Positions 2,104 through 27,494 of a stretch of 64,000 bases of DNA are shown one piece after another. The first letter of the stretch is position 1. Every line of letters begins with the position of its first letter. The position numbers were made by a program, and so were the translations under genes. The notes beneath the pieces were generated by a model. It was not told where the DNA came from. It was given only the letters and a program-made list of their open reading frames with translations, and ran no database searches. Source of the DNA: Chloroflexota bacterium (GTDB lineage Bacteria > Chloroflexota > Dehalococcoidia > Bin125); the NCBI GenBank assembly GCA_028874365.1, contig JAPPJZ010000009.1, positions 1 to 64,000 of the forward strand. Reading direction: 5' to 3'.

Positions 2104-2133
2104 ATCTGAGCAGAACACGGTCGGCGGTGTGCG

Positions 2134-2147: not shown

Positions 2148-2263
2148 GCGACGGAGTTGTCCGCTGGGTCATCATCGCCGGTGCCCGGTTCACAGTGCGC
2201 ATATGTTCTAACTGTAGTCGATCTCAGGCCCAGCGGGGACGGCAGGGTGTTGCGCAGGAGACG

Positions 2264-3852: not shown

Positions 3853-3899
3853 ACATCGAGATTACACTCGCGGTTCGGGGATTCGGATAATCTGGACGG

Positions 3900-3916
3900 G
3901 TCGTGCGTCGCACGAC
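3900..3916. promoter_or_regulatory. 17-bp inverted repeat upstream of the molybdopterin oxidoreductase
   Basis: GTCGTGCG and CGCACGAC flank a single T, giving a perfect 8-bp-arm inverted repeat between the divergent lspA and molybdopterin-oxidoreductase genes, 23 nt before the GTG start. It could be an operator or a leader hairpin. Confidence 0.35.
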
Positions 3917-3939
3917 GTTGATTCTGGGGGAGCAGGCTT

Positions 3940-4560: not shown

Positions 4561-4577
4561 GTCCGGCTGGAGTCGTC

Positions 4578-12307: not shown

Positions 12308-14485
12308 ATGCGGCGAGATGCGTGGCCTGACCCTGCCTGGTGGATCTGGCGTCGGCTGACGTCGGTCAAGTGGGCGATTGGGCTGATTCTGGCGGCGGCG
12401 CTGTTCTCGGCGGTTGGTGTGATCATTCCCCAGGTGCCGCCGCAGTTGGCGGACATCCCGGAACAGGTCGAGGAGCACATCGAGGCGCAACGGCCGACGT
12501 GGGGCTGGTTCACCGATGTGCTGGCCGAGTTCCCCTGGTTCTACGAGACCAACGGCGGCGTCTTCAACCTGTACAAGCAGCCCTACTGGTATGCGGTGGT
12601 GGCGCTGGTCGCGCTGGCGATCTCGGTCTGCACGGTCAGCCGCGCGCCACCGATCTGGCGTACCGTTCGGCGGCCACCGAAGCGGGTCAACGCGGCCTAC
12701 TTCGAGCGGGCGCGACACCGGGCGTCGGCCGATCTGTCCGCCGAAGACACGGTTGAAGCCGGGCGGCGGGGTCTGGAGTCGCGGCTGCGGGCGGCGCGCT
12801 ACCGAGTTGAACAGGTCGAGTCCGCGGACGGCGAGGTGATGCTCTTCGCCGACCGGTATGGCTGGGCGCAACTGGCCACGTTTGCCACGCACCTGGCGTT
12901 GTTGCTGCTGCTCGGTGCGACGCTGGTGACCAAGTTCGCGGGTGAGGAGTACCAGTTCTGGGTGGCGGAGGGTGAGTCTCACATCCTGTTCCCACCGGGC
13001 GACGATCGGGCGCAGGTGCAGATCATCGTTGACGATGCGATCGCGCAATTTGCGGACGACGGTCAGGCGCTGGATTTCCGCAGCATCGTTCGCGTGGCTG
13101 AGGCGGGACAGGAGGTCGGCGGGGGCGAGGTAACGGTCAACGGGCCCGTCCACGCGGCCGGCTACCGAGTCCACCAGGCGGCGTACTGGGAACACGGCGC
13201 GGAGTTGCGGGTGTTTGACCATTCGTCGGGGCAGTTGCTGTACGCGGAGACGCATTTCCTCGACGGGCAGATCGTGGGACCGAGAATTCGGGTCGCACGG
13301 GGCGGCTCGGTGGTGTCGGAAGAGGTGATCTCGCTGCAGTTTCAGGTTGTGGACGAACGTGCCGACTCGGAGGAAGACGAGCGGGTCTCGGGCTACAGCC
13401 TGATTCCGCTCGACGGGGTACGGTCGCTGGCGATCGTGCTGATTCCGACGGATGTCGACTTCGAGTTCTGGTACCGCGTGCTCCCGACCCCGCAGGACGC
13501 AGCGGGGTTGACATTGGAGGACCTCGGCGTCGGACAGGAAGCGCCGATGGGGCCGCGACTGGTGATGAGGATTGACGGCGAGGCGGCGTTTGAAGGGGTG
13601 GTGTCGCTGGATCAGTCGGAAGGAGAGGCGCGGCTGACTGCGTTGCCGATTGGCGACGATGAGTTGCTATACGTGGGATTTCGCGACGGTGCAACGGGTG
13701 AGGGGTTCTTCTACTACTCGCCGAGTCGAGAGTCAGATCGTGGGGCGCTGTCGCCGGGCGGTTCGATTGGACTGAGTAATGGGTTGAGCCTGACCTATCT
13801 CGGCGCTGAGCCGGACGCGGGGCTGCAGGGCTCGCTGGAGATCAACGAGACGCAACGGGTCGGGGCAATAGACCTGACCTGGCTGGGCGCGGAATCGGTG
13901 TTCTTTGAGGTTGCGTCGGAGATTCCGGGAGCGTCGGGCGATGCGCTGATCGCGTTGGAGCGGTTCGGACGGGCGCGGACGGCGGAACAGTTCAACGCGC
14001 TCGGCGGAGAGAGCGTGCGGCTGGCGGAAGGCTCGACGAATACGTCGTCGGCGGGCGGACAGGTGGGGCGGCCGGCGCGGATGGTGCTGGGTCTGGGTGG
14101 TGATGTGGGCCGGATCGAGCTTGATGAGGGGCAGGAGATCGTGCACGGCGGGATGCGCTACCAGTTTGCGGGCCCACGCGAGTTCACCGGACTGAATGTG
14201 CGCCGCGACCCGGGCGGGACGGCGTTCTGGGTGGGGATCGGACTCGGAATCGTTGGGATGAGCACGACGTTCTTCATGCCGCGCCGACGGGTCTGGGCAC
14301 GGGTGACGTCGGATCGCATCCAACTGGCGGGACAGGCCGGACACGGAGTTGACCTGACATCTGAATTGGAACGGCTTGCGTCCGGTATGGAGCAGGTCGG
14401 CAAACCGCGGCGCCGCTTCGGAGGTCGCGGGATGTTCGGCGGCGACTACGCTCAAGGTGATGACGGGAGTGGTGACGATGGTTGA
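12308..14485 (+). CDS. resB: ResB-family cytochrome c biogenesis protein
   Basis: Membrane subunit of system II cytochrome c maturation, which with ResC/CcsA delivers haem and attaches it to apocytochromes outside the membrane. The 725-residue protein has two hydrophobic segments near the N-terminus (SVKWAIGLILAAALF and the YAVVALVALAISV segment), one near 195-215 and one near the end (FWVGIGLGIVGMSTTFFMP), with a large extracytoplasmic region between, as in ResB/Ccs1. ResC and ResA are not in the window. Likely clients are the c-type cytochrome at 31319 and possibly the cytochrome b Cys70 haem. It overlaps lgt by 8 nt. Confidence 0.88.
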   Translation: MRRDAWPDPAWWIWRRLTSVKWAIGLILAAALFSAVGVIIPQVPPQLADIPEQVEEHIEAQRPTWGWFTDVLAEFPWFYETNGGVFNLYKQPYWYAVVALVALAISVCTVSRAPPIWRTVRRPPKRVNAAYFERARHRASADLSAEDTVEAGRRGLESRLRAARYRVEQVESADGEVMLFADRYGWAQLATFATHLALLLLLGATLVTKFAGEEYQFWVAEGESHILFPPGDDRAQVQIIVDDAIAQFADDGQALDFRSIVRVAEAGQEVGGGEVTVNGPVHAAGYRVHQAAYWEHGAELRVFDHSSGQLLYAETHFLDGQIVGPRIRVARGGSVVSEEVISLQFQVVDERADSEEDERVSGYSLIPLDGVRSLAIVLIPTDVDFEFWYRVLPTPQDAAGLTLEDLGVGQEAPMGPRLVMRIDGEAAFEGVVSLDQSEGEARLTALPIGDDELLYVGFRDGATGEGFFYYSPSRESDRGALSPGGSIGLSNGLSLTYLGAEPDAGLQGSLEINETQRVGAIDLTWLGAESVFFEVASEIPGASGDALIALERFGRARTAEQFNALGGESVRLAEGSTNTSSAGGQVGRPARMVLGLGGDVGRIELDEGQEIVHGGMRYQFAGPREFTGLNVRRDPGGTAFWVGIGLGIVGMSTTFFMPRRRVWARVTSDRIQLAGQAGHGVDLTSELERLASGMEQVGKPRRRFGGRGMFGGDYAQGDDGSGDDG

Positions 14486-15404
14486 GTTGGTCGGGATCAT
14501 CAATATCAACATCAATCCGGTGTTGGTCGATACGGGTGGATTCGAGCTCACCTGGCACGGCCTGTTCACGGCGGTTGGGATCGCGCTCGGGGTGTGGTTG
14601 GCGGTGCGTCTCGCGCGCCGAGCGCGGATTTCCGAGGACGATGCGATGTCGATCGCCGTCGTTTCGGTGCTCTCGGGGATCGTCGGTGCCCGACTGCTCT
14701 GGGTGCTCGAGCACACTGATCAGATCCACAAGGTTGGCGACATCTTCGCCCTGACCGACGGTGGGATTTCGATTTACGGCGCGATGATCGGCGGTGTGCT
14801 GGGCGGATTCCTGTTTGTGACGTTCTTCAAGCCCAAGTTTCCCAAGTGGGTGGCGCTGGATGTGGCTGCGCCAGGCATGATCCTGGGGCAGGCGGTGGGC
14901 CGATTTGGTGATTTCGTCAACGGAGAGCACTTTGCCAACGCCTCGGATCTGCCGTGGGCCTTTCGCTACACGCACCCACTGACGGATGGGCCCTGGTCCT
15001 CGCCGGGGGTCGACGAGTGGTACCGGGGATCACGGGGATTGGTTGACGAGGCGCCGGTCGCGGTGCACCCGGTCGCAGGCGGCTACGAGCCGATCCTGGA
15101 CTTCATGATCCTCGGCGGGCTGTTCCTGCTTCGTCGGCTGGGCGTGGGCGCGGGCTGGGGGTTTACGTTCTACGTCTTCGCCTACGCGGTGGTGCGGGGC
15201 TCGCTGTCGTTGCTGCGGACGGACGAGGCGGCGCTCGCCGGCGCGCTGAGCGTGCCGCAGCTGCTGGCGATCGTCACCGCCGTCGCCGCGGTGTGGATGG
15301 CGCTGCACCTGCGACGACATCAGCAGGCTCCGGTGCCGACGGGGGTTACGACGGAGCGACACACGCACCGCGGCAGCCGACGCGGAGGTCTCGGTCGTGG
15401 CTGA
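14478..15404 (+). CDS. lgt: Prolipoprotein diacylglyceryl transferase
   Basis: Integral membrane enzyme transferring diacylglyceryl from phosphatidylglycerol to the lipobox Cys of prolipoproteins. The Lgt signature is seen as GQAVGRFGDFVNGEHF, and FELTWHGLF at the N-terminus matches the family's typical RWYGL region in position. About seven hydrophobic segments. I chose the ATG at 14478 because GGGAG lies 8 nt upstream; an in-frame ATG at 14460 lacks this. That gives 308 residues. It overlaps resB upstream and the glutaredoxin-like gene downstream. lspA, the next enzyme of the pathway, is at 3301. Confidence 0.93.
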   Translation: MVELVGIINININPVLVDTGGFELTWHGLFTAVGIALGVWLAVRLARRARISEDDAMSIAVVSVLSGIVGARLLWVLEHTDQIHKVGDIFALTDGGISIYGAMIGGVLGGFLFVTFFKPKFPKWVALDVAAPGMILGQAVGRFGDFVNGEHFANASDLPWAFRYTHPLTDGPWSSPGVDEWYRGSRGLVDEAPVAVHPVAGGYEPILDFMILGGLFLLRRLGVGAGWGFTFYVFAYAVVRGSLSLLRTDEAALAGALSVPQLLAIVTAVAAVWMALHLRRHQQAPVPTGVTTERHTHRGSRRGGLGRG

Positions 15405-15636
15405 TGCGCTTGAGCTGATTCTCTGGGTGAAGCCTGATTGCGACGCTTGCGAGCGCGCGAGGGAACTGATGGCTTCGCTCTCGGCGGCGATGCTGTTTGA
15501 TTGGTCGGAGCAGGAGGGCGAGTTCGGGGATGCGGTGCCGGTCGTGGCGACCGCCGATGGCCGTGTGCTGGCCCAGGCTCCGATTCGGCCGGGCGATCTG
15601 GTCGATGCGATCGTGGCGGCTACGGCTCGAGATTGA
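15397..15636 (+). CDS. Glutaredoxin-like (DUF836-type) thiol protein
   Basis: A 79-residue thioredoxin-fold protein with the redox motif CDAC close to the N-terminus, in WVKPDCDACERA, and the cis-Pro region VPVVATADGR. This matches the small glutaredoxin-like DUF836 family. It starts with GTG inside the end of lgt. Its 3' end overlaps the convergent cysH by 17 bp. Predicted cytosolic thiol-disulfide exchange, possibly serving the neighbouring sulfate reduction enzyme, but no partner is shown by sequence. Confidence 0.75.
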   Translation: MADALELILWVKPDCDACERARELMASLSAAMLFDWSEQEGEFGDAVPVVATADGRVLAQAPIRPGDLVDAIVAATARD

Positions 15637-16375
15637 TCGAGTGCAGGCCACATTCCTTTTGCGTGGCCTCTTCCCACCACCAGCGACCGGCTCGTTCGTG
15701 CTCGCCGGGGTGGGTTGCGCGGGTGCACGGGGCGCAGCCGATCGACTTGAAGCCCTGGTCGTGGAGCGGGTTGTAGGGCACGCCGTAGGCCATGATGTGC
15801 TGCCAGACCTGGGCCGATGTCCAGTTGGCGAGCGGATTGAACTTGACCAGTGGATCGTCCTCTCGACCGAACCCGGGATCGAGTTGGACGACCGGGATCT
15901 CCGCGCGCGTGCCAGGCGACTGGTCCTTGCGTTGGCCGGTGACGTAGGCGTCGACATAGGCCAGCGCGCGGCCGAGCGGCTCGACCTTGCGGATGCCGCA
16001 GCACTGCTGGTGCCCGTCGGTGCGGAAGCTGAACAGGCCCTTCTCGCGGACCAAGGCCTGGACGGCCTCAGCGTTGGGATAGTAGGCCTCGATCGGCACG
16101 CCGTAGTGATCGCGGACCTGTTGGATGAACTCGAGCGTTTCGGGATGCAGTCGACCGGTGTCGAGGGTGAAGACGTTGAACGATCTACCCAGTTTCTCCG
16201 CTTCGCGGGCGGCGAAGTCGACGAGGACCACATCTTCGGCTCCGCTGAACGAGATGGTGATGTTGTCGAAGCGGGCGAGCGCCTCAGCGATGATGTCGGC
16301 TGGGTGCGTATCCGCCAGTCGATGGGCGTCGGCCTCGATCTGTGTCGCGTCGATTGCACTGCGGGCGGTGGACAT
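15620..16375 (-). CDS. cysH: Assimilatory adenylylsulfate (APS) reductase, Fe-S type
   Basis: Reduces activated sulfate to sulfite using thioredoxin-type electrons. The 251-residue protein has the PAPS-reductase P-loop-like SFSGAEDVVL, FTLDTGRLHPET, and the four cluster cysteines of the APS type as CC (125-126) and CAPC (214-217), plus the catalytic Cys242 in KECGLH. The CC...CxxC set points to a [4Fe-4S] APS reductase rather than a PAPS reductase. It is divergent from the Rrf2 regulator, with a candidate operator between. It supplies sulfide for the cysteine synthases downstream. Confidence 0.93.
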   Translation of the reverse strand: MSTARSAIDATQIEADAHRLADTHPADIIAEALARFDNITISFSGAEDVVLVDFAAREAEKLGRSFNVFTLDTGRLHPETLEFIQQVRDHYGVPIEAYYPNAEAVQALVREKGLFSFRTDGHQQCCGIRKVEPLGRALAYVDAYVTGQRKDQSPGTRAEIPVVQLDPGFGREDDPLVKFNPLANWTSAQVWQHIMAYGVPYNPLHDQGFKSIGCAPCTRATHPGEHERAGRWWWEEATQKECGLHSINLEP

Positions 16376-16428
16376 GCGCGGACTCCGGGAGGTGAGAGGG
16401 CAGGGCGAGTCAGTTGCCGAGGCGAAAT

Positions 16429-16446
16429 GTTACTATTTCAGTCAAG
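16429..16446. promoter_or_regulatory. Candidate Rrf2-type operator between cysH and the regulator
   Basis: GTTACTATTTCAGTCAAG lies in an AT-rich island of the cysH/Rrf2 divergent gap. The halves GTTACT and AGTCAAG form an imperfect inverted repeat. The minus strand reads TTGACT, which could double as a -35 element for cysH. No clear -10 was found at the right distance, so the promoter part is weak. Confidence 0.4.
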
Positions 16447-16492
16447 ATTATCCGCATCGTCCGAGATGCGGTACCCCGAAATCGTGTTGCCG

Positions 16493-16954
16493 ATGATGAA
16501 GCTGTCGTCCACGAGCGATTATGGCATTCGCGCCCTGGTCGATCTGGCGCAGCACGATGACGGCGCGCCGATTCCCTCGGCCGAAATCGCCGAGCGCCAG
16601 GGCATCCCGGGCTCGCTGGCCGGTCAGGTACTGGGACGCTTGCGCGCGGCGGGGTTCATCTCCTCGGCCCGGGGGTCGCAGGGGGGGCACCAGCTGGCGC
16701 TTGCGGCCGAGGAGATTCGACTGGATCGCGTCGTTGAGGCGCTCGAGGGTCCACTGACGCTGGCGGCGTGCCTGGAACGCGGGGCGCAGAACGGGCGAGC
16801 CTCGGAGCGCTGTACCGGGGCGGCCGCGCAAGTCCGCCTCTGGGACGACGTGCGTGCCGCCATTTTGAACACTTTGGCCGACCGCACGATCGCCGACCTG
16901 GCAGCGGAATCGGCCCAGCTGGGGGCGCCGAGCGGCGGACGGTACCAGATCTAG
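16493..16954 (+). CDS. Rrf2-family transcriptional regulator (CymR/IscR-like)
   Basis: A 153-residue winged-helix regulator. MMKLSSTSDYGIRALVDLA is the canonical Rrf2 N-terminus, and IAERQGIPGSLAGQVLGRLRAAGFI is the recognition helix region. IscR-type members use three Cys for a Fe-S cluster; here only Cys93 and Cys107 lie in that region, which argues for a CymR-like or redox-sensing type. In-frame ATGs at 16493, 16496 and 16466 are possible; I take 16493 by homology of the N-terminus. It is 26 nt upstream of cysK and divergent from cysH. Control of sulfur assimilation is inferred. Confidence 0.85.
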   Translation: MMKLSSTSDYGIRALVDLAQHDDGAPIPSAEIAERQGIPGSLAGQVLGRLRAAGFISSARGSQGGHQLALAAEEIRLDRVVEALEGPLTLAACLERGAQNGRASERCTGAAAQVRLWDDVRAAILNTLADRTIADLAAESAQLGAPSGGRYQI

Positions 16955-16980
16955 CGCAACCCCTAAGAGACGAATCCACC

Positions 16981-17934
16981 TTGAGCCTGACTCGACCGCA
17001 GTTGGCAAATTCCGTGCTTGAACTGATCGGCGCCACACCGATGGTCCGGCTGGATCGGGTCGTGCCCGACGGCGGAGCCGAGGTAGTGGCGAAGCTGGAG
17101 TCGCTCAATCCGGGCGGTTCGGTCAAGGACCGGATCGCGAAGTCGATGATCGACGACGCAGAGTGCAGCGGCGCGTTGCGGCCGGGTGACGTGATCGTCG
17201 AACCGACATCGGGGAACACCGGCGTGGGGCTGGCATTGGTGGCGGCGGTCAAGGGCTATCGACTGATCCTGACCATGCCTGAGGACATGTCACACGAACG
17301 GCGGCGGCTGTTGGAGCGGTTTGGGGCGGAAGTGGTGCTGACGCCGGCGATCGAGGGGATGACCGGGGCGGTGTATGCGGCGGAGGAACTGGCCTCGGAA
17401 GACGGCTACTTCATGCCACAGCAATTCCAGAATCTGTCCAATCCTGAGATCCACCGGCGGACGACGGCCCTAGAAATCTGGTCGGCGCTGGAAGGCCGCG
17501 AGATGCCCGACGGCGAGCGTCTGCACGCCTTCGTGACCGGCGTGGGCACCGGCGGCACGATCACCGGCGTCGGCGAAGTGCTGCGCGATCGTCAGCCGAG
17601 CCTGGCGGTGACCGCGGTCGAGCCGGAGCGCTCGCCGGTGCTGCAGGGTGGGCGATTCTCGGTCCACGCCATCCAGGGCATCGGCGCGTCGTTCGTGCCC
17701 GGCGTGCTGAACCGTGAGGTCTACGACGAGGTGATTGGCGTTTCGGATCGCGACGCTGAGCAGATGATGCTTCGGTTGACGCGCGAAGAGGGGATCTTGT
17801 GCGGCGTTTCATCGGGTGCGAACGTGTGCGCGGCGAACATCGTCGCCGAACGTCTCGGTCCCGATTGTCGGGTCGTGACCACGATCTGCGACACAGGCGA
17901 GCGGTATCTGTCGATGCCACTCTCCGATAGCTAA
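16981..17934 (+). CDS. cysK: Cysteine synthase A type (O-acetylserine sulfhydrylase)
   Basis: PLP enzyme making cysteine from O-acetylserine and sulfide. The 317-residue protein has Lys49 in GGSVKDR, substrate loop TSGNTGVGLA, GTGGTITGVGEVL for PLP phosphate, and the CysK-type HAIQGIGASFVPGVLN segment. The tail GERYLSMPL is also CysK-like, unlike the aromatic CysM tail of the gene at 19361. I use the TTG at 16981, since homologues need the SVLELIGATPMVRL start and no ATG precedes it. It directly follows the Rrf2 gene. In Bacillus subtilis CysK is a co-regulator of the Rrf2 protein CymR. Confidence 0.88.
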   Translation: MSLTRPQLANSVLELIGATPMVRLDRVVPDGGAEVVAKLESLNPGGSVKDRIAKSMIDDAECSGALRPGDVIVEPTSGNTGVGLALVAAVKGYRLILTMPEDMSHERRRLLERFGAEVVLTPAIEGMTGAVYAAEELASEDGYFMPQQFQNLSNPEIHRRTTALEIWSALEGREMPDGERLHAFVTGVGTGGTITGVGEVLRDRQPSLAVTAVEPERSPVLQGGRFSVHAIQGIGASFVPGVLNREVYDEVIGVSDRDAEQMMLRLTREEGILCGVSSGANVCAANIVAERLGPDCRVVTTICDTGERYLSMPLSDS

Positions 17935-17956
17935 GAGCGAGCTGAGAGGACGAGTC

Positions 17957-19045
17957 ATGAGCGTGAAGGTCTACATTCCGACGCCGTTTCGGAAGATCAC
18001 CGGGAACCGCACCTTTGTCGATGCCGAGGGCATCGACGTCAACGGCGTGTTGCGCGACCTCGATCAGCGCTTCCCGGGCTTCGGCGAGATGGTGTTCGAC
18101 GGCGAGCAGGAACTGCTCGAGCACGTCAATGTTTACGTGAACAATCACGAGATCACATCGTTGAACGGGCCCGAGACTCCGGTCGCGGATGGGGACGAAC
18201 TGGCCGTGATTCCCGCGATCGCGGGAGGGGCCGGGGCGGCGATGACGCCGGAGATGGTCGAGCGCTACTCGCGGCACCTGATCATGGACCAGGTCGGCCC
18301 ATTGGGTCAGCGCAAGTTGATCGACGGCAAGATTCTCGCCGTCGGCGCCGGCGGCCTGGGTTCGCCCGTGCTCGTTTACCTCGCCGCGGCGGGGATCGGC
18401 ACGATCGGGATCGCAGATTTCGACGTAGTTGATCGGTCCAACTTGCAACGCCAGATCATCCACGGCACGTCCGATATCGGGCGGATGAAGGTCGACTCGG
18501 CCAAGAACCGGATTCTCGACATGAATCCGAACATCAACGTGATCACGCACACCTCGCCGCTGACGTCGGACAACGCGATGGAGATCATTCCGGAGTACGA
18601 CGTGATCATCAACGGGGCCGACAACTTCGCCACCCGCTACCTGGTCAACGATGCTGCGTTCCTGGCTGAGAAGATCCTGGTCGATGGCTCGATCTTCCTG
18701 TTCGAAGGGCAGGTCACGACGTTCTTCCCGGGCGAGGGCTGCTACCGCTGCCTCTACCCCTCGCCGCCGCCGCCAGGCATGGTCCCGTCCTGCTCCGAGG
18801 CCGGGGTGCTGGGCGTGCTGCCGGGGACGGTCGGTGCGATCCAGGCAACCGAGGCGATCAAGGTCCTGCTTGAGCAGGGAGAGCCGCTCAAGAACCGTCT
18901 CTTGCTCTACGACGCCCTGGCGATGGACTTCCGCACTGTCAAGATCCGCCGCGACCCAGGCTGCCCGCTCTGTGGCGACGCGCCGACGGTGACCGAGCTG
19001 ATCGACTACGAGGAGTTCTGCGGCTCGCCCTTCCACGAGAACTAG
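17957..19045 (+). CDS. Fusion of a CysO/MoaD-like sulfur carrier with a MoeB/MoeZ-type E1
   Basis: A 362-residue two-domain protein. Residues 1-91 form a beta-grasp sulfur carrier of the MoaD/CysO type ending IPAIAGG (Gly90-Gly91), the terminal motif normally at the very end of such carriers. After a five-residue AGAAM joint, residues 97-362 form a ThiF/MoeB adenylyltransferase: RYSRHLIM, nucleotide loop GAGGLGSP (130-137), DNFATR, zinc pairs Cys262/Cys265 and Cys336/Cys339, and the SCSEAG Cys279 at the position of the MoeB Cys. It has no rhodanese domain; a separate rhodanese is at 20351. Reading frame and ribosome site (GAGAGGA) are clean, so the fusion looks real. The carrier end would have to be freed by proteolysis to be adenylated. 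Confidence 0.92.
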   Translation: MSVKVYIPTPFRKITGNRTFVDAEGIDVNGVLRDLDQRFPGFGEMVFDGEQELLEHVNVYVNNHEITSLNGPETPVADGDELAVIPAIAGGAGAAMTPEMVERYSRHLIMDQVGPLGQRKLIDGKILAVGAGGLGSPVLVYLAAAGIGTIGIADFDVVDRSNLQRQIIHGTSDIGRMKVDSAKNRILDMNPNINVITHTSPLTSDNAMEIIPEYDVIINGADNFATRYLVNDAAFLAEKILVDGSIFLFEGQVTTFFPGEGCYRCLYPSPPPPGMVPSCSEAGVLGVLPGTVGAIQATEAIKVLLEQGEPLKNRLLLYDALAMDFRTVKIRRDPGCPLCGDAPTVTELIDYEEFCGSPFHEN

Positions 19046-19082
19046 TCTGCTCAACCGGCGCACGAGCGAGAGGATCGACCGC

Positions 19083-19361
19083 ATGGCTGTTGAAGTTCGG
19101 GTCCCGTCGATGCTGCAGAAGTTCACCGATGGTGAGAAGAAGGTGCAGCTCGAGTCCGCCAACATCGGCGAATTGCTGACCACGCTGGAGACCTCGTATC
19201 CGGGGATCGGCGACCAACTGATGGAAGACGGCGAACTGCGCCGTTTCGTCAACATCTACCTGAACGACGAGGACATTCGCTTCCTTGACGGCATGGACAC
19301 GTCGCTGTCCGACGGCGATGTGCTCGCGATCTTGCCGGCGCTCGCCGGAGGCTCACGCTGA
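19083..19361 (+). CDS. cysO: CysO-type sulfur carrier protein with Gly-Gly-Ser-Arg end
   Basis: A 92-residue ubiquitin-like carrier closely resembling mycobacterial CysO across FVNIYLNDEDIRFLDG and LSDGDVLAILPALAGG. In the CysO pathway the C-terminal Gly is thiocarboxylated by MoeZ and donates sulfur to CysM. Here Gly89-Gly90 are followed by Ser-Arg before the TGA, so the carrier would need trimming before activation, as known for some archaeal and bacterial ubiquitin-like proteins. The stop overlaps the cysM ATG (TGATG). GAGAGGA precedes the start. Confidence 0.93.
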   Translation: MAVEVRVPSMLQKFTDGEKKVQLESANIGELLTTLETSYPGIGDQLMEDGELRRFVNIYLNDEDIRFLDGMDTSLSDGDVLAILPALAGGSR

Positions 19362-20320
19362 TGGTCACGGCCGCTCCAGTTCGCTACCAGTCCTTGTTGG
19401 ACACGATCGGCGACACGCCGCTGGTTCGCTTGCAGCGGATGTCACCGAATCCCGATGTGGCGATCTGGGTGAAGCTGGAAGGCCAGAATCCGACCGGTTC
19501 GGTCAAGGACCGGATCGCGAGAGCGATGATCAACGCGGCCCACGCCGACGGGTCACTCCAACCCGGCCAGACCATCCTGGAACCGACATCCGGGAACACC
19601 GGCCTGTCGATCGCGTTGATGGGCCGTTTGACCGGTCATCCGGTGCGATGCGTGATGCCGGAATCGGTCTCGGTGGAGCGCCGCGATCTGCTCTCGTTCT
19701 TTGGCGCAGAGGTCGTGTTGTCGCCGGGGGAGACCGGATCCAACGGGGCAGTGCGGATGGCCAAGGAGATGTATGAGGCCGACCCGTCGGTGTTCATGCC
19801 GATGCAGTATGAGAACGCGGCCAATCCGGGCGCACACTACGAGACGACCGGACCGGAGATCTACCGCGACTGTCCCGAGATCACGCACTTCGTTGCCGGT
19901 CTGGGCACGGGCGGCACGCTGACCGGTGTCGGGCGTTACCTCAAGGAACAGAATCCGGAGATCAAGATCGTCGCGGCTGCGCCGCATCCCGGCGATCTAG
20001 TGCAGGGACTGCGCTCGCTTGACGAGGGCTACATCCCGCCGGTTCTGGACGAGTCGGTGCTCGATGCGCGGATCATGGTCGACTCGCGCACTTCGTTCGC
20101 GGTGGTCAAGCGGCTGCTTGAAGAGGAAGGTATTTTCGCCGGCATCTCCTGCGGCGCGGCGATTCGCGCCGCGCAGCGAGCCGCGGAACGGCTCGACAGC
20201 GGCAACATCGTGGTGTTGCTGGCTGACGGTGGTTGGAAGTATCTCTCGACCGGTCTGTGGAATCGCGACTACGAGGACATCGCCGGCGACGAAGAAATCG
20301 AAGGCAAAATCTGGTGGTAA
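19361..20320 (+). CDS. cysM: CysM-type cysteine synthase (CysO-thiocarboxylate / O-phosphoserine)
   Basis: A 319-residue PLP enzyme with Lys49 in TGSVKDR, TSGNTGLSIALMGR and GTGGTLTGVGRYL. Two features mark it as the CysO-dependent CysM rather than CysK: the segment QGLRSLDEGYIPP, equivalent to the O-phosphoserine-selecting Arg region of mycobacterial CysM, and the C-terminal EGKIWW, matching the aromatic tail that plugs that enzyme's active site. It is translationally coupled to cysO. Expected product after sulfur transfer is a CysO-cysteine adduct, which a JAMM protease then cleaves; one is encoded at 22587. Confidence 0.93.
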   Translation: MVTAAPVRYQSLLDTIGDTPLVRLQRMSPNPDVAIWVKLEGQNPTGSVKDRIARAMINAAHADGSLQPGQTILEPTSGNTGLSIALMGRLTGHPVRCVMPESVSVERRDLLSFFGAEVVLSPGETGSNGAVRMAKEMYEADPSVFMPMQYENAANPGAHYETTGPEIYRDCPEITHFVAGLGTGGTLTGVGRYLKEQNPEIKIVAAAPHPGDLVQGLRSLDEGYIPPVLDESVLDARIMVDSRTSFAVVKRLLEEEGIFAGISCGAAIRAAQRAAERLDSGNIVVLLADGGWKYLSTGLWNRDYEDIAGDEEIEGKIWW

Positions 20321-20350
20321 CTGACCACCGTCTGAAGAAAGGACAGTCGC

Positions 20351-21196
20351 ATGGCTGACTACGCACACCCCGAGAAGCTCGTTTCGACCGACTGGGTCGC
20401 CGACAACCTGGACAACGCGAATGTGGTTCTGATCGAGGTCGATGTCGACACCTCGGCCTACGACGAGGGACACCCGCCGGGAGCGGTGGCGTGGAACTGG
20501 ACCTCGCAGTTGCAGGACCAAGTTTCGCGCGATGTCGCGTCCCGGGACGTGATCACCGACCTGCTGCACAACGCCGGCGCCAACGACGACTCGCAGATTG
20601 TGCTGTTCGGCGACAACAACAACTGGTTCGCGGCGTACGCGCTGTGGATGCTCGAGCTCTACGGCGTGACCAACACTGCACTAATGGACGGCGGCCGGGT
20701 CAAGTGGCTGGCCGAGGGTCGCGCGACGACGACTGACGCGCCGGCGGCCGGGTCAGGCAGTATCGCCGTCGCCGAGCGGGACGAGACGCTGCGCGCCCGG
20801 TTGACCGATGTGCTGGCGCACGTCGAGGCCGGCGGACAACTGGTTGATGTCCGTTCTCCGGACGAGTTCAACGGCGTGATCATGGCTCCTCCGGGACTGC
20901 CGGAGACCGCGCAACGCAAGGGTCACGTGCCCGGCGCGTCGAACATCCCCTGGGCGACGGCGGTGGCCGAGGACGGCACGTTCAAGTCGGCGGACGAGCT
21001 CAGCAACATCTACCAGGCGCAGGGCATTACCGGCGACCAGTCGGTGATCGCGTACTGCCGGATCGGCGAGCGCTCGTCGCATAGCTGGTTCGCGCTGCGT
21101 TACCTGCTGGGCATCGACAACACGACGAACTACGACGGCTCCTGGACCGAGTACGGTTCGGTCGTTGGTGTGCCGATCGATAACCCTTCGGCCTAA
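20351..21196 (+). CDS. sseA: Two-domain thiosulfate sulfurtransferase (rhodanese)
   Basis: A 281-residue tandem rhodanese. The first domain (about 1-125) lacks an active Cys (LFGDNNNWFA at that place). The second carries the active-site loop AYCRIGERSSHSW. CRIGERS is the loop of the SseA/CysA thiosulfate sulfurtransferase group. In the mycobacterial pathway the rhodanese is fused to MoeZ. Here the E1 has no rhodanese, so this separate protein could supply persulfide sulfur to the carrier. It sits between cysM and the downstream hypothetical gene, with which it overlaps (TAATG). Confidence 0.9.
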   Translation: MADYAHPEKLVSTDWVADNLDNANVVLIEVDVDTSAYDEGHPPGAVAWNWTSQLQDQVSRDVASRDVITDLLHNAGANDDSQIVLFGDNNNWFAAYALWMLELYGVTNTALMDGGRVKWLAEGRATTTDAPAAGSGSIAVAERDETLRARLTDVLAHVEAGGQLVDVRSPDEFNGVIMAPPGLPETAQRKGHVPGASNIPWATAVAEDGTFKSADELSNIYQAQGITGDQSVIAYCRIGERSSHSWFALRYLLGIDNTTNYDGSWTEYGSVVGVPIDNPSA

Positions 21197-21576
21197 TGTC
21201 GGAGCAGGCCGATCTGGTCTGGAGACGGACCGTCGCCCGGGCAGTGAGTTCGGGCGACGGGTCGGCGCTGCCGATTCACTTCGCTGCATCGGTGCTGCGC
21301 CGCTACGTTGACGGTGGCGCGAAGATCCTGCGCAGCGACACGGTCGGTCGGCTGATGCAGCCGGGCAAAGCGGTGATCGATTTCGGCATCGTCGAGGACG
21401 ACACCGTCATCCACCTGCGATTCGGCGATATCGGCTCGCTGATTCCCGAATCGGAGCGTGTCCACTGGCTGGATCATCTGGTGGCTCCGTCGGCGAGCCG
21501 TCCATATCTGCAGATGACTTTGCAGCCAGGGGCCTGCCACGACGACGGCGATCTGCGCGAGTGGAATCCGCGGTAG
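21196..21576 (+). CDS. Conserved hypothetical protein in the sulfur cluster
   Basis: A 126-residue protein I do not recognise. The ATG overlaps the rhodanese stop, indicating co-translation. The middle has alternating hydrophobic strands (ILRSDTVGRLMQPGKAVIDFGIVEDDTVIHLRF) and the end is short and polar. No cysteine except one near the C-terminus, no membrane segment and no signal peptide. Tight coupling to the rhodanese gene suggests a role with the sulfur block, but no function can be assigned. Confidence 0.65.
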   Translation: MSEQADLVWRRTVARAVSSGDGSALPIHFAASVLRRYVDGGAKILRSDTVGRLMQPGKAVIDFGIVEDDTVIHLRFGDIGSLIPESERVHWLDHLVAPSASRPYLQMTLQPGACHDDGDLREWNPR

Positions 21577-21595
21577 GCTGGCATGGGAGAACGAC

Positions 21596-21973
21596 ATGGT
21601 GACCGCAGCGGTTGGACGCTATAGCGACCTGAGCGACACCTATCTTCAGAGGGCGCACGCCTACCTCAATGACGGCGATCTCACCCAGGCGTCGGAGAAG
21701 GGTTGGGGGGCCGCTGCGGTGCTGGTAAAGGCCTGCGCCGAAGCGCGAGGACTCCACCACGACCGTCATCATCAGCTCTGGCGCGCGGTGAATCGCCTCG
21801 TTGACGAAACCGGCGATCGGGAGCTGCAAATGCTCTTCTCACACGTGGAATCTCTGCACGGCAACTACTACGAAGACTATTGGGATACGACTACCGTGGC
21901 GGCGCACCTGCAGCAGGTGGATGCCTTCGTCGAGAAGCTACGGCCGCTGATTGAGCCTCCAGCGGACGCGTGA
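21596..21973 (+). CDS. PaREP1/HEPN-like small helical protein
   Basis: A 125-residue, largely helical protein. The pattern YLQRAHAYLNDGDLTQASEKGWGAAAVLVKACAEARG followed by HHQLWRAVNRLV resembles the PaREP1/HEPN-like family of small helical proteins, some of which are RNases or nucleotidyltransferase partners. The classical HEPN RxxxxH motif is not clear. No nucleotidyltransferase gene is adjacent. Its stop overlaps the GTG of the MT-A70 methyltransferase gene, so the two are probably co-translated. Confidence 0.65.
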   Translation: MVTAAVGRYSDLSDTYLQRAHAYLNDGDLTQASEKGWGAAAVLVKACAEARGLHHDRHHQLWRAVNRLVDETGDRELQMLFSHVESLHGNYYEDYWDTTTVAAHLQQVDAFVEKLRPLIEPPADA

Positions 21974-22590
21974 TTGGCCGACGGGTGCTGTTTCCGCCAT
22001 TGCCGGACGAGCGCTACGCAATCATCTACGCCGATCCGCCCTGGGACTACAAGGGTCAACTGCAGCACGCTGGAGCGGGCAGCGGCGACTCGGGCGGGGC
22101 GATCCGCCATTACGACACGGTGCAGTTGCAGGACCTGATGGAACTCGACGTTTCGTCGATTGCTGCTGACGATTCCCTGCTCTTCATGTGGGCGACGTCG
22201 CCGCACCTCGATCAGGCGATCGACCTGGGCAAGGCCTGGGGCTTTGCGTGGGCCACCGTGGCGTTCGTCTGGGACAAGCAGCGGGTCAACCCAGGCTTCT
22301 ACACGATGTCGCAGTGCGAACTCTGCCTGGTCTTCAAGCGCGGCCGGATTCCGGCACCGCGGGGCGCGCGCAACGTGCGGCAACTGGTCTCGGAGCGGCG
22401 CGAAGGCCATTCACGCAAACCGGTCGAGGTGCGGCGCAGGATCGAGGAGATGTTTCCGCGCCAACGTAAGATCGAGCTATTCGCGCGAGACGCCGATGTC
22501 CACGGCTGGGACACCTGGGGCGCGGAGATTCCGCATCCGCAGACCGAGCGCACATTCTGGCAAGAACAGCGGGAGGCGGCAGGAACATGA
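21970..22590 (+). CDS. MT-A70-family N6-adenine methyltransferase
   Basis: A 206-residue SAM-dependent methyltransferase. The catalytic motif DPPW is at residues 22-25 (YADPPWDY), followed by LLFMWATSPHL and the family's KPVEVRRRIEEMFP and KIELFARD blocks. MT-A70 enzymes methylate adenine N6 in DNA or RNA. No restriction enzyme or specificity subunit is adjacent, so it appears to be an orphan. It starts with GTG inside the end of the HEPN-like gene and its own end overlaps the JAMM gene (ATGA), placing it within the sulfur transcription unit. Confidence 0.9.
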   Translation: MIGRRVLFPPLPDERYAIIYADPPWDYKGQLQHAGAGSGDSGGAIRHYDTVQLQDLMELDVSSIAADDSLLFMWATSPHLDQAIDLGKAWGFAWATVAFVWDKQRVNPGFYTMSQCELCLVFKRGRIPAPRGARNVRQLVSERREGHSRKPVEVRRRIEEMFPRQRKIELFARDADVHGWDTWGAEIPHPQTERTFWQEQREAAGT

Positions 22591-23093
22591 GCCTGGAGTT
22601 GCCGCAGGTCCTCGTCGACGAAATGGTCGCGCACTCGCGCGAGGATCTGCCGAACGAGTGTTGCGGGGTGATCGGGCGCGGGTCCGACGGCGCGATGACG
22701 CTCTGGCGGGCGACCAACGATCAGGCCTCGCCGTGGCGATTCAATATTCCAGCCCAGCAGCTCCTGCATCTGTACAACCAGATCGAGGATGTCGACGGTG
22801 ACCTGCTGGTCATCTATCACTCGCACGTGGCCTCGGAGGCGCGGCCCTCGCCCACCGATCTGAACATCGCTCGGCTGCATAAGGGCGCGACCGAGTGGCC
22901 CTACTGGGTGTTGGTCTCACTGGCTGACGAGCCGCCTTCGGTGCGAGCCTGGCGGATCGACGACGGCGACGAACCGGATACGGTGAAGGCGGTCGAGATC
23001 GAGTTGGTCATCTCTGGTGGTGACGCCGAGCGGAAACGGTTGGAGATGATCGAGGTCGACGGCAGGCCGAGAGTGCGGGAGTCAACGTTGTGA
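22587..23093 (+). CDS. mec: JAMM/Mov34 metalloprotease (Mec-type)
   Basis: A 168-residue JAB1/MPN+ zinc protease. The full JAMM set is visible: Glu24 in NECCGVIG, and His78-Ser-His80 with Ser88 and Asp91 in IYHSHVASEARPSPTDL, i.e. HxHx7SxxD. In mycobacteria the Mec+ protease removes cysteine from the CysO-cysteine adduct made by CysM. This protein lacks a signal peptide and has the length of bacterial Mec proteins. Because both carriers in this cluster have residues after Gly-Gly, it may also mature them. It overlaps the MT-A70 gene by 4 nt and lies just upstream of folP. Confidence 0.92.
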   Translation: MSLELPQVLVDEMVAHSREDLPNECCGVIGRGSDGAMTLWRATNDQASPWRFNIPAQQLLHLYNQIEDVDGDLLVIYHSHVASEARPSPTDLNIARLHKGATEWPYWVLVSLADEPPSVRAWRIDDGDEPDTVKAVEIELVISGGDAERKRLEMIEVDGRPRVRESTL

Positions 23094-23103
23094 AGGGGCT
23101 GTA

Positions 23104-23907
23104 GTGGAGCTGGACGCGTTTGCGTGGGGTTCGCGGACGCTGATCGTCGGGATTCTCAACGTCACACCTGATTCGTTTGCCGGCGACGGGATCGTCGACG
23201 TTGATGGAGCGGTCGCACTGGCCGAGCAGATGGTGCACGACGGCGCGGACATTATCGACATCGGCGGAGAGTCGACCCGGCCCGGGTTCCAACCGGTGAG
23301 CACCGAGGTTGAGCGAGCGCGTGTGGTTCGAGTCGTTGAGCGTGCGGCGGCGAGTTTGGACGCTACGCCGATCTCGATCGACACGACGAAGCCGGAGGTC
23401 GCTCTCGCGGCGTTCGAGGCGGGGGCGACCATGCTGAACGACACGAACGGTTTGCAGGGCGATCCCGCGCTGGCGGATGTCGCCGCTGCTCGTGACGCCT
23501 GGGTCGTCGCCATGCACAATCAGCGCCGGCGATCGGCTGCGACCGATCCGGTCGCGGCCACACTGGAGGGCTTTCGCGAATCGCTGGACATCGCGACGCG
23601 GCACGGCGTGTCGCAAGAGCGCGTCATCCTCGACCCCGGTTTCGGTTTTGGCTGGGAGCTGGTCGAGAACGCTGAGATTCTCAGACGGCTGTCGGAGCTG
23701 CGGGTGTTGAGACGTCCGATTCTGGTTGGGATGTCTCGCAAGCGGATGACGGGCGAGCAATTCGGCTGGGGTGTTGAGCAACGGCTGGAGGGTTCGGCTG
23801 CGGTCACGGCCCTGGCCGTCGCAAACGGAGCCGACCTCGTCCGCGTTCACGACGTCGCTGAGATGACCCGGGTTGTGCGGATGGCCGACGACATCGTGCG
23901 CCGATGA
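23104..23907 (+). CDS. folP: Dihydropteroate synthase
   Basis: Condenses p-aminobenzoate with dihydropterin pyrophosphate in folate synthesis. The 267-residue TIM-barrel protein shows GILNVTPDSFAGDG (signature 1), IIDIGGESTRPG (signature 2), ISIDTTKPEV, LDPGFGFG and GMSRKRM. The GTG start at 23104 lies 10 nt after the JAMM gene. The stop overlaps folK (ATGA). The NQRRRSA segment after the MHN motif is a little unusual, but all key motifs are present. Confidence 0.95.
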   Translation: MELDAFAWGSRTLIVGILNVTPDSFAGDGIVDVDGAVALAEQMVHDGADIIDIGGESTRPGFQPVSTEVERARVVRVVERAAASLDATPISIDTTKPEVALAAFEAGATMLNDTNGLQGDPALADVAAARDAWVVAMHNQRRRSAATDPVAATLEGFRESLDIATRHGVSQERVILDPGFGFGWELVENAEILRRLSELRVLRRPILVGMSRKRMTGEQFGWGVEQRLEGSAAVTALAVANGADLVRVHDVAEMTRVVRMADDIVRR

Positions 23908-24407
23908 CGAACGTCTTCCTCGGCCTTGGCGGCAACATGGGCGATCGGCGGGAGATGATGCGTTCCGCGGTTGCAGGGATTCGCCGTGTCCTGGACGGTG
24001 TTGCGGTCTCTTCGCTTTACGAGTCTGCAGCCTGGGGCGTGACGGAACAGCCGGCGTTTCTCAACGCGGTCGCACGCGGTCGAACGTCACTTGGGCCGTT
24101 GGAACTCCTGGATGCCGTGCAGGCGATCGAGAATGAGCTGGGCCGTGTGCGCGAACAGCACTGGGGCCCACGTCTGATCGATATCGACATCCTGCTCTAT
24201 GGAAGCGAAGTCATTGACGAGCCACGACTCAAGGTTCCGCATCCCTACCTGAGCCAGCGAGGATTCGTCTTGCGGCCGCTCGCCGATCTGGCGGCCGGGT
24301 TGACGTTGCCGGATGGATCGCTGGTCGGCGAGCTGTTGACCACGGTCGATCAGAATGACTTACGGAGGATCGAGGGTCCCAGGTGGGCCGACGCGCGGCA
24401 GGACTAG
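23904..24407 (+). CDS. folK: HPPK, 6-hydroxymethyl-dihydropterin pyrophosphokinase
   Basis: Transfers pyrophosphate from ATP to 6-hydroxymethyl-dihydropterin, the step before FolP. The 167-residue protein carries VFLGLGGNMGDR, SSLYESAAWGVTEQPAFLNAV and the signature WGPRLIDIDILLYG, then LKVPHPYLSQRGFVLRPLADL. It is coupled to folP by overlap. Its 3' end overlaps the convergent small membrane gene by 4 bp. Confidence 0.96.
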   Translation: MTNVFLGLGGNMGDRREMMRSAVAGIRRVLDGVAVSSLYESAAWGVTEQPAFLNAVARGRTSLGPLELLDAVQAIENELGRVREQHWGPRLIDIDILLYGSEVIDEPRLKVPHPYLSQRGFVLRPLADLAAGLTLPDGSLVGELLTTVDQNDLRRIEGPRWADARQD

Positions 24408-24643
24408 ATGTCGTCGAGCGGCTCGGGGACGAAGTTGAGACCCTCGAGGTCGTCTTCGAGTTCGTAGGTTGTCCAGCCAACCCAGAAGAGCAGGATGGCC
24501 GCGGTCAACGTGATTGCGGCGGCGGGAATGGCGACGGCGGCGTAGCTGCGGCGGCGGACGCCCGCCAGGAACCAGATCGCCTGGAACGCGGCGGCGATCA
24601 TCAGGGTGAGACCAGTCAATCGAGTGCGGTCCATTGGGGCCAT
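24404..24643 (-). CDS. Small two-TM membrane protein
   Basis: A 79-residue hypothetical protein with two hydrophobic segments (about residues 10-27 and 35-58) joined by a basic VRRRS loop, so the loop is predicted inside. A polar acidic tail ELEDDLEGLNFVPEPLDD follows. Convergent with folK and divergent from the next membrane gene. Function unknown. Confidence 0.55.
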   Translation of the reverse strand: MAPMDRTRLTGLTLMIAAAFQAIWFLAGVRRRSYAAVAIPAAAITLTAAILLFWVGWTTYELEDDLEGLNFVPEPLDDI

Positions 24644-24677
24644 GTAGCGAGCATATCGCCGTTGTTAGGCTTGCGTT

Positions 24678-25376
24678 GTGACCACGGAATCGACCGAATC
24701 AACCCACTCGAGTCATCTGGCCGAAGTGGACGACGCGCTCGACGACGTCGAAGAGCGATTGCTGGATCGCCCGGCGGCGGTCGCGGAACCGCTTGCCGCT
24801 CGGACGCTGTATCTGCACCGTCGCGTGGTCACGATCACACCTGAGCGAATCGAGGTACGGCCACCGCGATCGGCTGTGATTGTGCCGTTGCTTGGCGTGG
24901 CTCTGACCGCCGGCCTGCTGGCCCTGATGGGAACTTCGGTCGACTCGTTCCCGTTCTGGCTGATGGGCATCCTCCTGCTTTTCTCGGTGGTGCTGCTGCC
25001 GCTGTCCGGGATCTCGCTGGTGTATGCCCTGATGGGCGCCAACATCGTCGCCGATCGCGGCGGTCAGAACGTTTCGATGAAGCAACGATTCCTGGGACTC
25101 GGGATCGGGACGAACGAACTGATCCCGTTCTGGAAGATTCGCGAGCTGCTGGTGGAGGATGAAGGCCGCGAGATCGCCCGCGCGGGCGGGACGATTCCGG
25201 CTGAGGAGTTCGCGCAGTGGCAACTGGCGCTGGTCAAGAAGAGCGGGACGAGACACGTGCTCGGCTCCGTTTCTACTCCACGCCAGCACGAGGAAGAGGG
25301 ACTGCAGCAGATCTTCGAGGTCGCGGAGGCGTTCTCTGCGCTGACGGACGCGCCGATTCGCGGGCCGATCTGGTAG
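24678..25376 (+). CDS. Hypothetical membrane protein, two TM segments
   Basis: A 232-residue protein starting with GTG. A polar, acidic N-terminus with AEVDDALDDVEERLLD is followed by a short beta-like region and two adjacent hydrophobic segments (about 70-88 and 92-115). A soluble C-terminal domain of ~115 residues includes IPFWKIRELLVEDEGRE. The layout resembles small PH-like bacterial membrane proteins, but I cannot assign a family. It is 9 nt upstream of the CoA-binding protein gene. Confidence 0.6.
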   Translation: MTTESTESTHSSHLAEVDDALDDVEERLLDRPAAVAEPLAARTLYLHRRVVTITPERIEVRPPRSAVIVPLLGVALTAGLLALMGTSVDSFPFWLMGILLLFSVVLLPLSGISLVYALMGANIVADRGGQNVSMKQRFLGLGIGTNELIPFWKIRELLVEDEGREIARAGGTIPAEEFAQWQLALVKKSGTRHVLGSVSTPRQHEEEGLQQIFEVAEAFSALTDAPIRGPIW

Positions 25377-25385
25377 GAGCATGCG

Positions 25386-25862
25386 ATGAGCGACACCGCG
25401 ATGAGATGGCAAGCGCAGATCGACGCCGATGTCAAGGCATCGCTCGCCGATATGGCGACGATCGCCGTGATTGGACTTTCTCCGAACCCGGAGCGAGATT
25501 CTCATCGCGTGAGCGCGTACATGCAGCGCCACGGATATCGGATCATCCCAATCAATCCGGTCGCGGCGGGGACCGAGATTCTGGGGGAGCACGTTTATGC
25601 CTCACTCGAGGATGCGCAGCAGGCGCTGCCGGACCTTGAGGTCGATACGGTCAACGTCTTCCGGCGCTCGGTGGATACCGACCGACCGATCGCCGACGCG
25701 ATCGCTGCGCGCGCGGACGGCGTGCGAACGGTCTGGCTGCAGCTCGGCATCGTCAATCGCGAGGGTCTGGAACAGGCGAGAGCCGCCGGTCTGCGTGCCG
25801 TGGAGGACAGATGCCTGATGGTCGAACATCGGCGTGTGGTACCGACGGATCAGGTGCGTTAA
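25386..25862 (+). CDS. CoA-binding domain protein (YccU-like)
   Basis: A 158-residue single Rossmann-fold protein of the CoA-binding family seen in succinyl-CoA synthetase alpha subunits. Visible features are IAVIGLSPNPERDSHRV near the N-terminus, YRIIPINPVAAGTEILGEHVYASLEDA, VDTVNVFRRS, VWLQLGIVN and the ending CLMVEHRR. Stand-alone YccU-type proteins bind CoA or related nucleotides; the physiological role is unclear. It lies between the membrane gene and purF. Confidence 0.88.
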   Translation: MSDTAMRWQAQIDADVKASLADMATIAVIGLSPNPERDSHRVSAYMQRHGYRIIPINPVAAGTEILGEHVYASLEDAQQALPDLEVDTVNVFRRSVDTDRPIADAIAARADGVRTVWLQLGIVNREGLEQARAAGLRAVEDRCLMVEHRRVVPTDQVR

Positions 25863-25904
25863 CGTGCAACTACACCCCGGAATCGACTAACGCGAGGCCC
25901 GCGC

Positions 25905-27494
25905 GTGCAGCAGCCGATTGCCGACTCCGACCCAGAGCCGCCGCACCCTGACATCTCCCTACGCGCCCTTGACGACCGCCCGCGAGAGGCGTGCGGTGTG
26001 TTCGGGATCTGGGCGCCGGAGGTGGATGTCGCGGTCGAAACGTTCTACGGCATCCATACGCTGCAGCATCGCGGGCAGGAGAGTGCCGGCATCTGCACGA
26101 CCGATGGCCGCAAGCTGTCCGTCAAGACCGGCATGGGTCTGGTCGCGCAGGTATTCGACGAGCAAAGCGCGGCTGAGCTGGAGGGGCTCGCGGCCATCGG
26201 GCACACGCGGTATTCGACGACCGGCGCCAGCCGCTTCCGCAATGCGCAACCCATCCTGCTCGACGATCCGCTGACAGGCGAACAGATGGCGATTGCGCAC
26301 AACGGCAACGTCGTCAACGCGGCCCAGGTCCGGGTGGAGCTTACGGAGAACGGGGCGACCTTCGAAACTTCGACCGATACCGAAGTGCTGGCCAAGTATC
26401 TCCTGCTCTTCGGCGACGACGAGCAGGAGATTGACGAGATCTGGGAAACCCGCTTCAGCGCGCTGATGCGTCATATCGAAGTGGCATATTCGCTGGTCTT
26501 GCTGACCCCCGATCGGCTGATGGCCGCCCGCGACCCATATGGTGTGCGGCCGCTCTGCATCGGAGAGGTCGGCGGCCGCTATGTGGTGGCGTCGGAGACC
26601 TGTGCCCTTGACCAACTCGGCGCGACCCTGCTGCGCGAGGTCAGGCCGGGTGAGCTGATCACGATCGACGATCGCGGCATGCGCTCGTACCAGGCGATCT
26701 TCCCGGCGCAGCCAGCGGGCTGCGTGTTCGAGCACATCTACTTCGCGCGACCTGACTCGATCCTCGATGGTCAGGCTGCATGGCAATCGCGGACGCAACT
26801 GGGCGTCGAGTTGGCGCGCGAGCAACCGGCGGACGGGGACATTGTGATCGGCGTGCCCGATTCGGCGACTGCGCACGCGATCGGTTACTCGTCCGAGTCA
26901 GGGATTCCTTACTCGGAGGGTCTGGTCAAGAACCGTTACGTGGGCCGCACGTTCATCTCCCCTGACCAGCGTCTGCGCGACCTGGGCGCTCACCTGAAGT
27001 ACAACCCGATGCCGTCGGTGCTTGCCGGCCGACGTGTGGTCGTGGTTGACGACACTATCGTCCGCGGCACGACGACACCGCGGATCGTGAAGCTGTTGCG
27101 TGAAGCCGGGGCGGCGGAGATCCATATGCGCATCGCTGCTCCGCCGATCCGCCATCCCTGCCACTTCGGCGTCGACATGGCGACACGGCAGGAACTGATC
27201 GCGGCGCGGCAGTCGGTCGAAGAGATTCGCGAGCATCTGGGGGCCGACTCGCTGGGCTACCTGAGCCAGGAGGGTCTGCACCGCGCCCTGTCGCTGGGCA
27301 AGACGACCTGCCTGGCCTGCTTCAACGGCGACTATCCGGTCTCGGTCCAGACCGACTTCGAGATTGACACGCTGTCTGTTCCTCTGGTCACCGCCGCTCC
27401 TCCGCGTGTGAACGGCAATGGAAGCGGCTCTGCGCCACGCCGTAATGGGCGTTCGGACGAAACGACGGTCGCACTCGCGCCGGAGCGCCGCTGA
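25905..27494 (+). CDS. purF: Amidophosphoribosyltransferase
   Basis: First committed step of purine synthesis, PRPP plus glutamine to phosphoribosylamine. The 529-residue protein has a propeptide of about 29 residues ending before Cys30 in REACGVFGI, the N-terminal nucleophile after processing. A class II glutaminase domain (HTLQHRGQESAG, GHTRYSTTG, AHNGNVVN) is followed by the PRTase domain with VVVVDDTIVRGTT. Cysteines in HPCHFGVD and TTCLACFNGD fit the Fe-S type of enzyme. GTG start. The C-terminal ~45 residues are low-complexity. It is 3 nt from purM. Confidence 0.96.
   Translation: MQQPIADSDPEPPHPDISLRALDDRPREACGVFGIWAPEVDVAVETFYGIHTLQHRGQESAGICTTDGRKLSVKTGMGLVAQVFDEQSAAELEGLAAIGHTRYSTTGASRFRNAQPILLDDPLTGEQMAIAHNGNVVNAAQVRVELTENGATFETSTDTEVLAKYLLLFGDDEQEIDEIWETRFSALMRHIEVAYSLVLLTPDRLMAARDPYGVRPLCIGEVGGRYVVASETCALDQLGATLLREVRPGELITIDDRGMRSYQAIFPAQPAGCVFEHIYFARPDSILDGQAAWQSRTQLGVELAREQPADGDIVIGVPDSATAHAIGYSSESGIPYSEGLVKNRYVGRTFISPDQRLRDLGAHLKYNPMPSVLAGRRVVVVDDTIVRGTTTPRIVKLLREAGAAEIHMRIAAPPIRHPCHFGVDMATRQELIAARQSVEEIREHLGADSLGYLSQEGLHRALSLGKTTCLACFNGDYPVSVQTDFEIDTLSVPLVTAAPPRVNGNGSGSAPRRNGRSDETTVALAPERR

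Follow-up and report, generated by a model that had tools for sequence, protein, structure and literature searches.

In a run of co-oriented genes of a Chloroflexota genome, we identify what is likely, in our judgement, to be a CysO-CysM-Mec+ cysteine pathway in which one JAMM protease matures several sulfur carriers and also frees cysteine, and in which the dipeptide that CysO carries past its Gly-Gly comes, within the genus, from the ribosome-binding site of cysM. The window, i.e. the whole stretch of DNA analysed (64,000 nucleotides), corresponds to contig C51 of a genome of 3.12 Mb that is 96% complete. A preliminary description of the window had proposed these two jobs for the JAMM protein. 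This part has gained support, as extended or fused carriers occur almost only together with JAMM and published precedents fit, whereas the notion of the tail as a distinctive feature has not.

Gene run around cysO and the JAMM gene

From cysK to folK the genes lie in one direction (+ strand) with intergenic gaps of at most 37 nt. The first is cysK, coding for cysteine synthase A (16768-17934, +; TIGR01139, 401 bits, above the cut-off), for which the coordinates are the ORF bounds and the conserved part starts about 78 codons in. It is followed by a fusion of a ThiS/MoaD domain (PF02597, residues 5-91) with a MoeB-type E1 (PF00899, residues 104-337) at 17957-19045 (+), by the sulfur carrier gene cysO (19083-19361, +; an ORF of 92 aa) and by cysM (19361-20320, +), a cysteine synthase gene of the CysO-dependent/O-phosphoserine type. 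Next come a two-domain rhodanese/sulfurtransferase (20351-21196, +; PF00581, E 7e-29, in two stretches), which is the probable donor of sulfur to the carrier adenylate, and a 126-aa protein to which no family was assigned. A PaREP1 protein (21596-21973, +), an MT-A70-like methyltransferase (21970-22590, +), the Mec+-type JAMM metalloprotease (22587-23093, +), folP (23104-23907, +) and folK complete the run. The PaREP1 and MT-A70-like genes, which separate the rhodanese gene from the JAMM gene, had no counterpart at the other neighbourhood loci scanned; the name of the PaREP1 family derives from archaea. Also, a cysH-like APS/PAPS reductase gene on the complementary strand (15620-16375, -; PF01507 E 1e-47, NF002537 above the cut-off) places the run in a context of sulfate assimilation. 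No RNA family matched within window positions 14000-26000. Among named relatives, the closest that was found is a MAG of Chloroflexota (L286), its CysO being 97% identical.

The JAMM-folP-folK order recurs in family f33 (L256, L257), there with JAMM far from cysO. In one of these genomes (G152) the two are about 1 Mb apart and the order is nonetheless kept, because of which the link of JAMM to the folate genes may be as strong as that to cysO.

JAMM, CysM and E1 proteins

The complete JAMM motif that the preliminary description had placed in the same gene run was confirmed. It reads HSHVASEARPSPTD at 22818-22859, with Glu24 at 22656 (E...HSHx7SxxD), and its residues do not vary among 13 aligned homologs. 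The protein matches Prok-JAB (PF14464, E 6e-19), and its predicted model (pLDDT 87) has P. furiosus JAMM1 and D. hafniense DSY2949 as the nearest solved folds, with a TM score to the former of 0.85-0.88 when normalised by target length; both the E...H-S/T-H-x7-S-x2-D pattern and the MPN fold thus place it in the JAMM/MPN+ family. No second Prok-JAB gene was found in the genome. The operon of this JAMM and its 38-41% identity to the JAMMs of actinobacterial CysO operons suggest an enzyme of the Mec+ type that would hydrolyse CysO-Cys, while cutting of carrier precursors after Gly-Gly, in the manner of QbsD or DRJAMM, is a candidate role to which co-occurrence points. It may be noted that shortly past the catalytic Asp (22860-22890) this JAMM and its closest relative have some 5 inserted residues, and that both are longer by some 25 residues at the C-terminus (23010-23090); most of the aligned homologs lack these two features.

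The best PDB match of CysM is M. tuberculosis CysM (3dki/3dwg), at 316 bits, while the next kind scores 250. Its Arg218 aligns with Arg220 and its C-terminal EGKIW with EGQLW, in keeping with membership of the CysM group. The E1 of the fusion is the only one of MoeB type found in the genome; it contains ThiS and ThiF domains only, and no rhodanese domain of the MoeZR type was found in it, the rhodanese being encoded by a separate gene. A second E1-like protein of the genome belongs to a CBASS-like cassette (L022, G000:C63:8000-13000; 2113-3645 and 3652-4686, - strand) that combines a CD-NTase-like gene with a Cap2-like E2-E1 fusion and adjoins the HsdM gene of a type I restriction system. A JAB partner of this cassette was not found in the genome.

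CysO and its dipeptide tail

As had been described earlier, CysO ends two residues past Gly-Gly (...AILPALAGGSR). The Gly-Gly codons GGAGGC, the tail codons TCA CGC and the stop TGA occupy 19347-19361 (+), the stop sharing one base with the ATG of cysM at 19361. The protein has a beta-grasp/ThiS domain (PF02597, E 4e-15), and its best PDB matches are 4n6e_B and 3dwg_C. The latter is M. tuberculosis CysO (E 3e-22), with a chain that ends at the aligned Gly-Gly, so that the window CysO differs from it in the encoded terminus.

This contrast with mycobacterial CysO, drawn in the preliminary description, is true but misleading, since 67 of 80 named CysO homologs, mostly from Actinobacteria, also carry a tail (51 by exactly two residues) and the tail-less M. 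tuberculosis type is the minority form among them. Because of this a terminal Gly-Gly does not define the wider CysO family, and the tail is neither a distinctive feature nor peculiar to the organism of the window. A sequencing accident or artefact is also ruled out by conservation across the genus, as the tail is present in all 11 other genus genomes read, with exactly two residues in 8. Its sequence varies (SR, SS, SA, AA, AS, HR, AR, AH, DG, A and two long ones). On counting the CysO-type carriers of the class (n=76), 16 were found to have no residue past Gly-Gly, 17 one, 22 two and 21 more, so that two is the commonest length in both samples. In five actinobacterial homologs (L293, L297, L309, L324, L333) the tail is exactly 20 residues long; the last residues of several (MA, MV, TR) resemble the usual dipeptide, as though a stretch had been inserted after Gly-Gly, ahead of the old end.

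Tail and the probable ribosome-binding site of cysM

The Gly-Gly codons of cysO contain GGAGG (19347-19351), 9 nt upstream of the cysM ATG, which is likely to be the Shine-Dalgarno sequence of cysM. In 12 genus members these codons are GGAGGC (10 cases) or of GGGGG type (2 cases), and the distance from GGRGG to the cysM start is a constant 9 nt, even in the genome with a one-residue tail; the two long-tailed members have a second GGAGG near the new end of CysO. Other carriers of these genomes have GGAGG at Gly-Gly in only 3 of 49 cases as against 10 of 12 for CysO in the genus. The position of the cysO stop thus seems to be set in the genus by initiation of cysM, and the dipeptide would probably arise as a side effect of the cysM ribosome-binding site and be tolerated, as we propose, because it is trimmed. 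This explanation of the tail in the genus of the window is the part that is new here. The ribosome-binding site was rejected as the origin of dipeptide tails in general, because outside the genus, in Actinobacteria, cysO has a two-residue tail even where cysM begins 76-83 nt away; these tails may be inherited or functional.

Since tail length in the genus follows the cysM ribosome-binding site, the tail need not be a dedicated pro-peptide. That the two-residue length is the commonest in both samples, also where cysM does not overlap, would suit a functional pro-peptide, with CysO inactive until JAMM acts and sulfur transfer gated by proteolysis. Yet the tail sequence is unconserved in the genus, its length there moves with the start of cysM and many genomes with JAMM have a tail-less CysO, and we regard a pro-peptide as improbable compared with a by-product that is trimmed.

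Carriers of the genome and their fusions

Besides one Prok-JAB gene and one MoeB-type E1, ten carriers of the ThiS/MoaD family were found in the window genome. Four stop at Gly-Gly, CysO continues with SR, three others continue with TGEEP, 16 residues and 31 residues, and two are fused, namely ThiS-MoeB (GG-AGAA) and MoaD-MoaE (GG-SDSD). If Gly-Gly must be terminal, 6 of the 10 would be precursors. In the genomes read from the family of the window, no tail was seen on the true ThiS (VGAKQGG). In a sister genus (L159, G151:C5) a MoaD-type carrier (FPPVAGG) is fused after Gly-Gly to a 433-residue protein of no recognised kind.

In the ThiS-MoeB fusion of the window the internal Gly-Gly is followed by AGAA-MTPEMVERYSRH. 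Gly-Gly is kept in all 61 fusions of this type that were read, and the P1' residue is nearly always Ala, Gln or Ser. The fusion might also never be cut, with its ThiS domain acting in cis on the E1 or an internal start at the Met after the linker giving free MoeB. Genus members do have a Met as the last linker residue, immediately ahead of the E1 domain, and the window fusion encodes its internal Gly-Gly as GGAGGG slightly upstream of this ATG; but most fusions of other families lack a Met at the linker end (LTPEQV...), and most genus fusions have no GGAGG at Gly-Gly and yet keep Gly-Gly and track JAMM. An uncut fusion is therefore, in our view, distinctly unlikely, and cleavage after the internal Gly-Gly is preferred.

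Extended carriers and JAMM across genomes

The preliminary description had suggested comparing carrier C-termini with JAMM presence. A dedicated JAMM, defined as a Prok-JAB match with E <=1e-13, is present in 125 of the 197 genomes of the class that were compared; weaker matches, which look RadC-like, were excluded. The expected correlation was found, with carriers extended past Gly-Gly by a tail or fusion in 161 of 211 cases in JAMM-containing genomes against 2 of 24 in JAMM-less genomes (Fisher p 6e-11), a count from which five JAMM-less genomes, incomplete or with a demonstrated gap, were excluded. One of the latter 2 is a Gly-Gly-Gly end. For non-CysO carriers in the family of the window alone, 28 of 52 are extended with JAMM and 2 of 24 without (p 1e-4). 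Such genome-level p values overstate independence, the genomes being related, and are weakened by the sampling of JAMM-containing genomes mostly through CysO-like queries, but the direction of the association is consistent despite both. Also, JAMM lies within 5 kb of cysO in 75 of the 80 named homologs, the other 5 loci being cut by a contig end. JAMM-less genomes of family f20 (G139, G019 and G116, at loci L122, L123 and L119) have a CysO-like carrier ending in Gly-Ala, and that of G086 ends in Ala-Ala-Gly.

Fusions show the same trend: ThiS-MoeB in 70 genomes with JAMM and 2 without, MoaD-MoaE in 50 and 1. When genomes are grouped by family, JAMM is present in every family that has a fusion (p about 0.01 for each fusion type). 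Among the exceptions, G141 misses the whole JAMM-folP-folK block, which its sister carries at 93% identity; the contig of G169 stops 47 nt past the fusion match where its sister G100 continues with cysM and JAMM; and G057 is only 63% complete. JAMM loss with tails or fusions kept was thus rejected for G141 and G169 in favour of assembly gaps, and after this check no case was left of homologous genomes with tails but no JAMM, which would have spoken against the two jobs.

A simpler alternative is that JAMM only frees cysteine from CysO-Cys, the published role of Mec+ (PMC3227635), with the tail harmless or removed by a general carboxypeptidase. It agrees with the retention of JAMM in many genomes where CysO ends exactly at Gly-Gly, because of which JAMM must be kept for another reason too. 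But the fusions have more than 140 residues after Gly-Gly, which is beyond carboxypeptidase trimming, and still track JAMM, and non-CysO carriers with tails of 1-31 residues are present in JAMM-containing genomes and hardly at all in the others. We therefore consider cysteine release as the sole job to be unlikely, and favour maturation of carriers alongside it.

Proposed pathway

In the scheme that we infer from gene content, motifs, neighbourhood and co-occurrence, every cleavage and sulfur-transfer step is put conditionally. The run would encode a CysO-CysM-Mec+ cysteine pathway with carriers made as precursors, CysO-GG-SR and ThiS-MoeB here, and MoaD-MoaE and three tailed carriers elsewhere in the genome. 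The single JAMM would cut after Gly-Gly and expose a terminal glycine, which the MoeB-type E1 would adenylate and to which the rhodanese would give sulfur, forming a thiocarboxylate, as is known for these families. CysM would join the thiocarboxylate to activated serine, the adduct would rearrange to CysO-Cys, and the same JAMM, by analogy with Mec+, would free the cysteine. The dipeptide of the genus would probably result from a dual use of the Gly-Gly codons, which also provide the ribosome-binding site for cysM, the gene that overlaps with cysO. More tentatively, and with somewhat less than an even chance in our estimate, the one JAMM could be a genome-wide maturase of at least six carriers (for cysteine, molybdenum cofactor and others) on which several sulfur-transfer pathways depend, leaving carrier genes free to overlap or fuse downstream.

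Comparison with known systems

QbsE of P. fluorescens, a carrier of a siderophore pathway with an E1 fused to rhodanese, has two residues past Gly-Gly that the JAMM QbsD removes; the window has the same kind of carrier end and a JAMM partner, in a cysteine pathway instead. The M. tuberculosis CysO-CysM-Mec+ system (Rv1335-Rv1336-Rv1334) has the same three protein types and shares the CysM Arg220 equivalent, but in the window CysO carries a dipeptide tail, the rhodanese is a separate gene, and the E1 has a ThiS domain of its own and no rhodanese domain. Operons of ThiS/MoaD, E1, JAB and cysteine synthase were noted by Iyer et al. in 2006, who proposed that JAB could free fused ThiS or MoaD (PMC1779556). 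P. furiosus JAMM1 and the Caldiarchaeum Rpn11 homolog process ubiquitin precursors (PMC6043591); these archaeal JAMMs are among the nearest solved folds and share the chemistry on ubiquitin-like C-termini, but their substrates are protein modifiers and sequence identity is only 15-20%.

JAMM trimming of carriers is already known from D. radiodurans, where DRJAMM (DR0402) cleaves a MoaD-MoaE fusion to a C-terminal Gly (PMC8832034), and with both tail and protease widespread the window locus is, as the comparison of genomes suggests, a well-supported case of this known kind. A MoaD-MoaE fusion is likewise encoded in the window genome, but the single JAMM there belongs to a cysteine operon and would have several carriers to process. 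If the association holds, two reactions of similar chemistry are performed by a Mec+-type JAMM, and a tailed or fused sulfur carrier in a bacterium can be taken to indicate such a protease. M. tuberculosis MoaX is cut between Gly82 and Ser83 by a protease left unnamed in that work (PMC4326299). The MoaD-MoaE of the window genome likewise reads GG|S, and the P1' residues of the fusions are akin to those of Gly82|Ser83. Under the same condition the resident Mec+ becomes the first protease to consider for MoaX cleavage, with DRJAMM as its parallel in Deinococcus.
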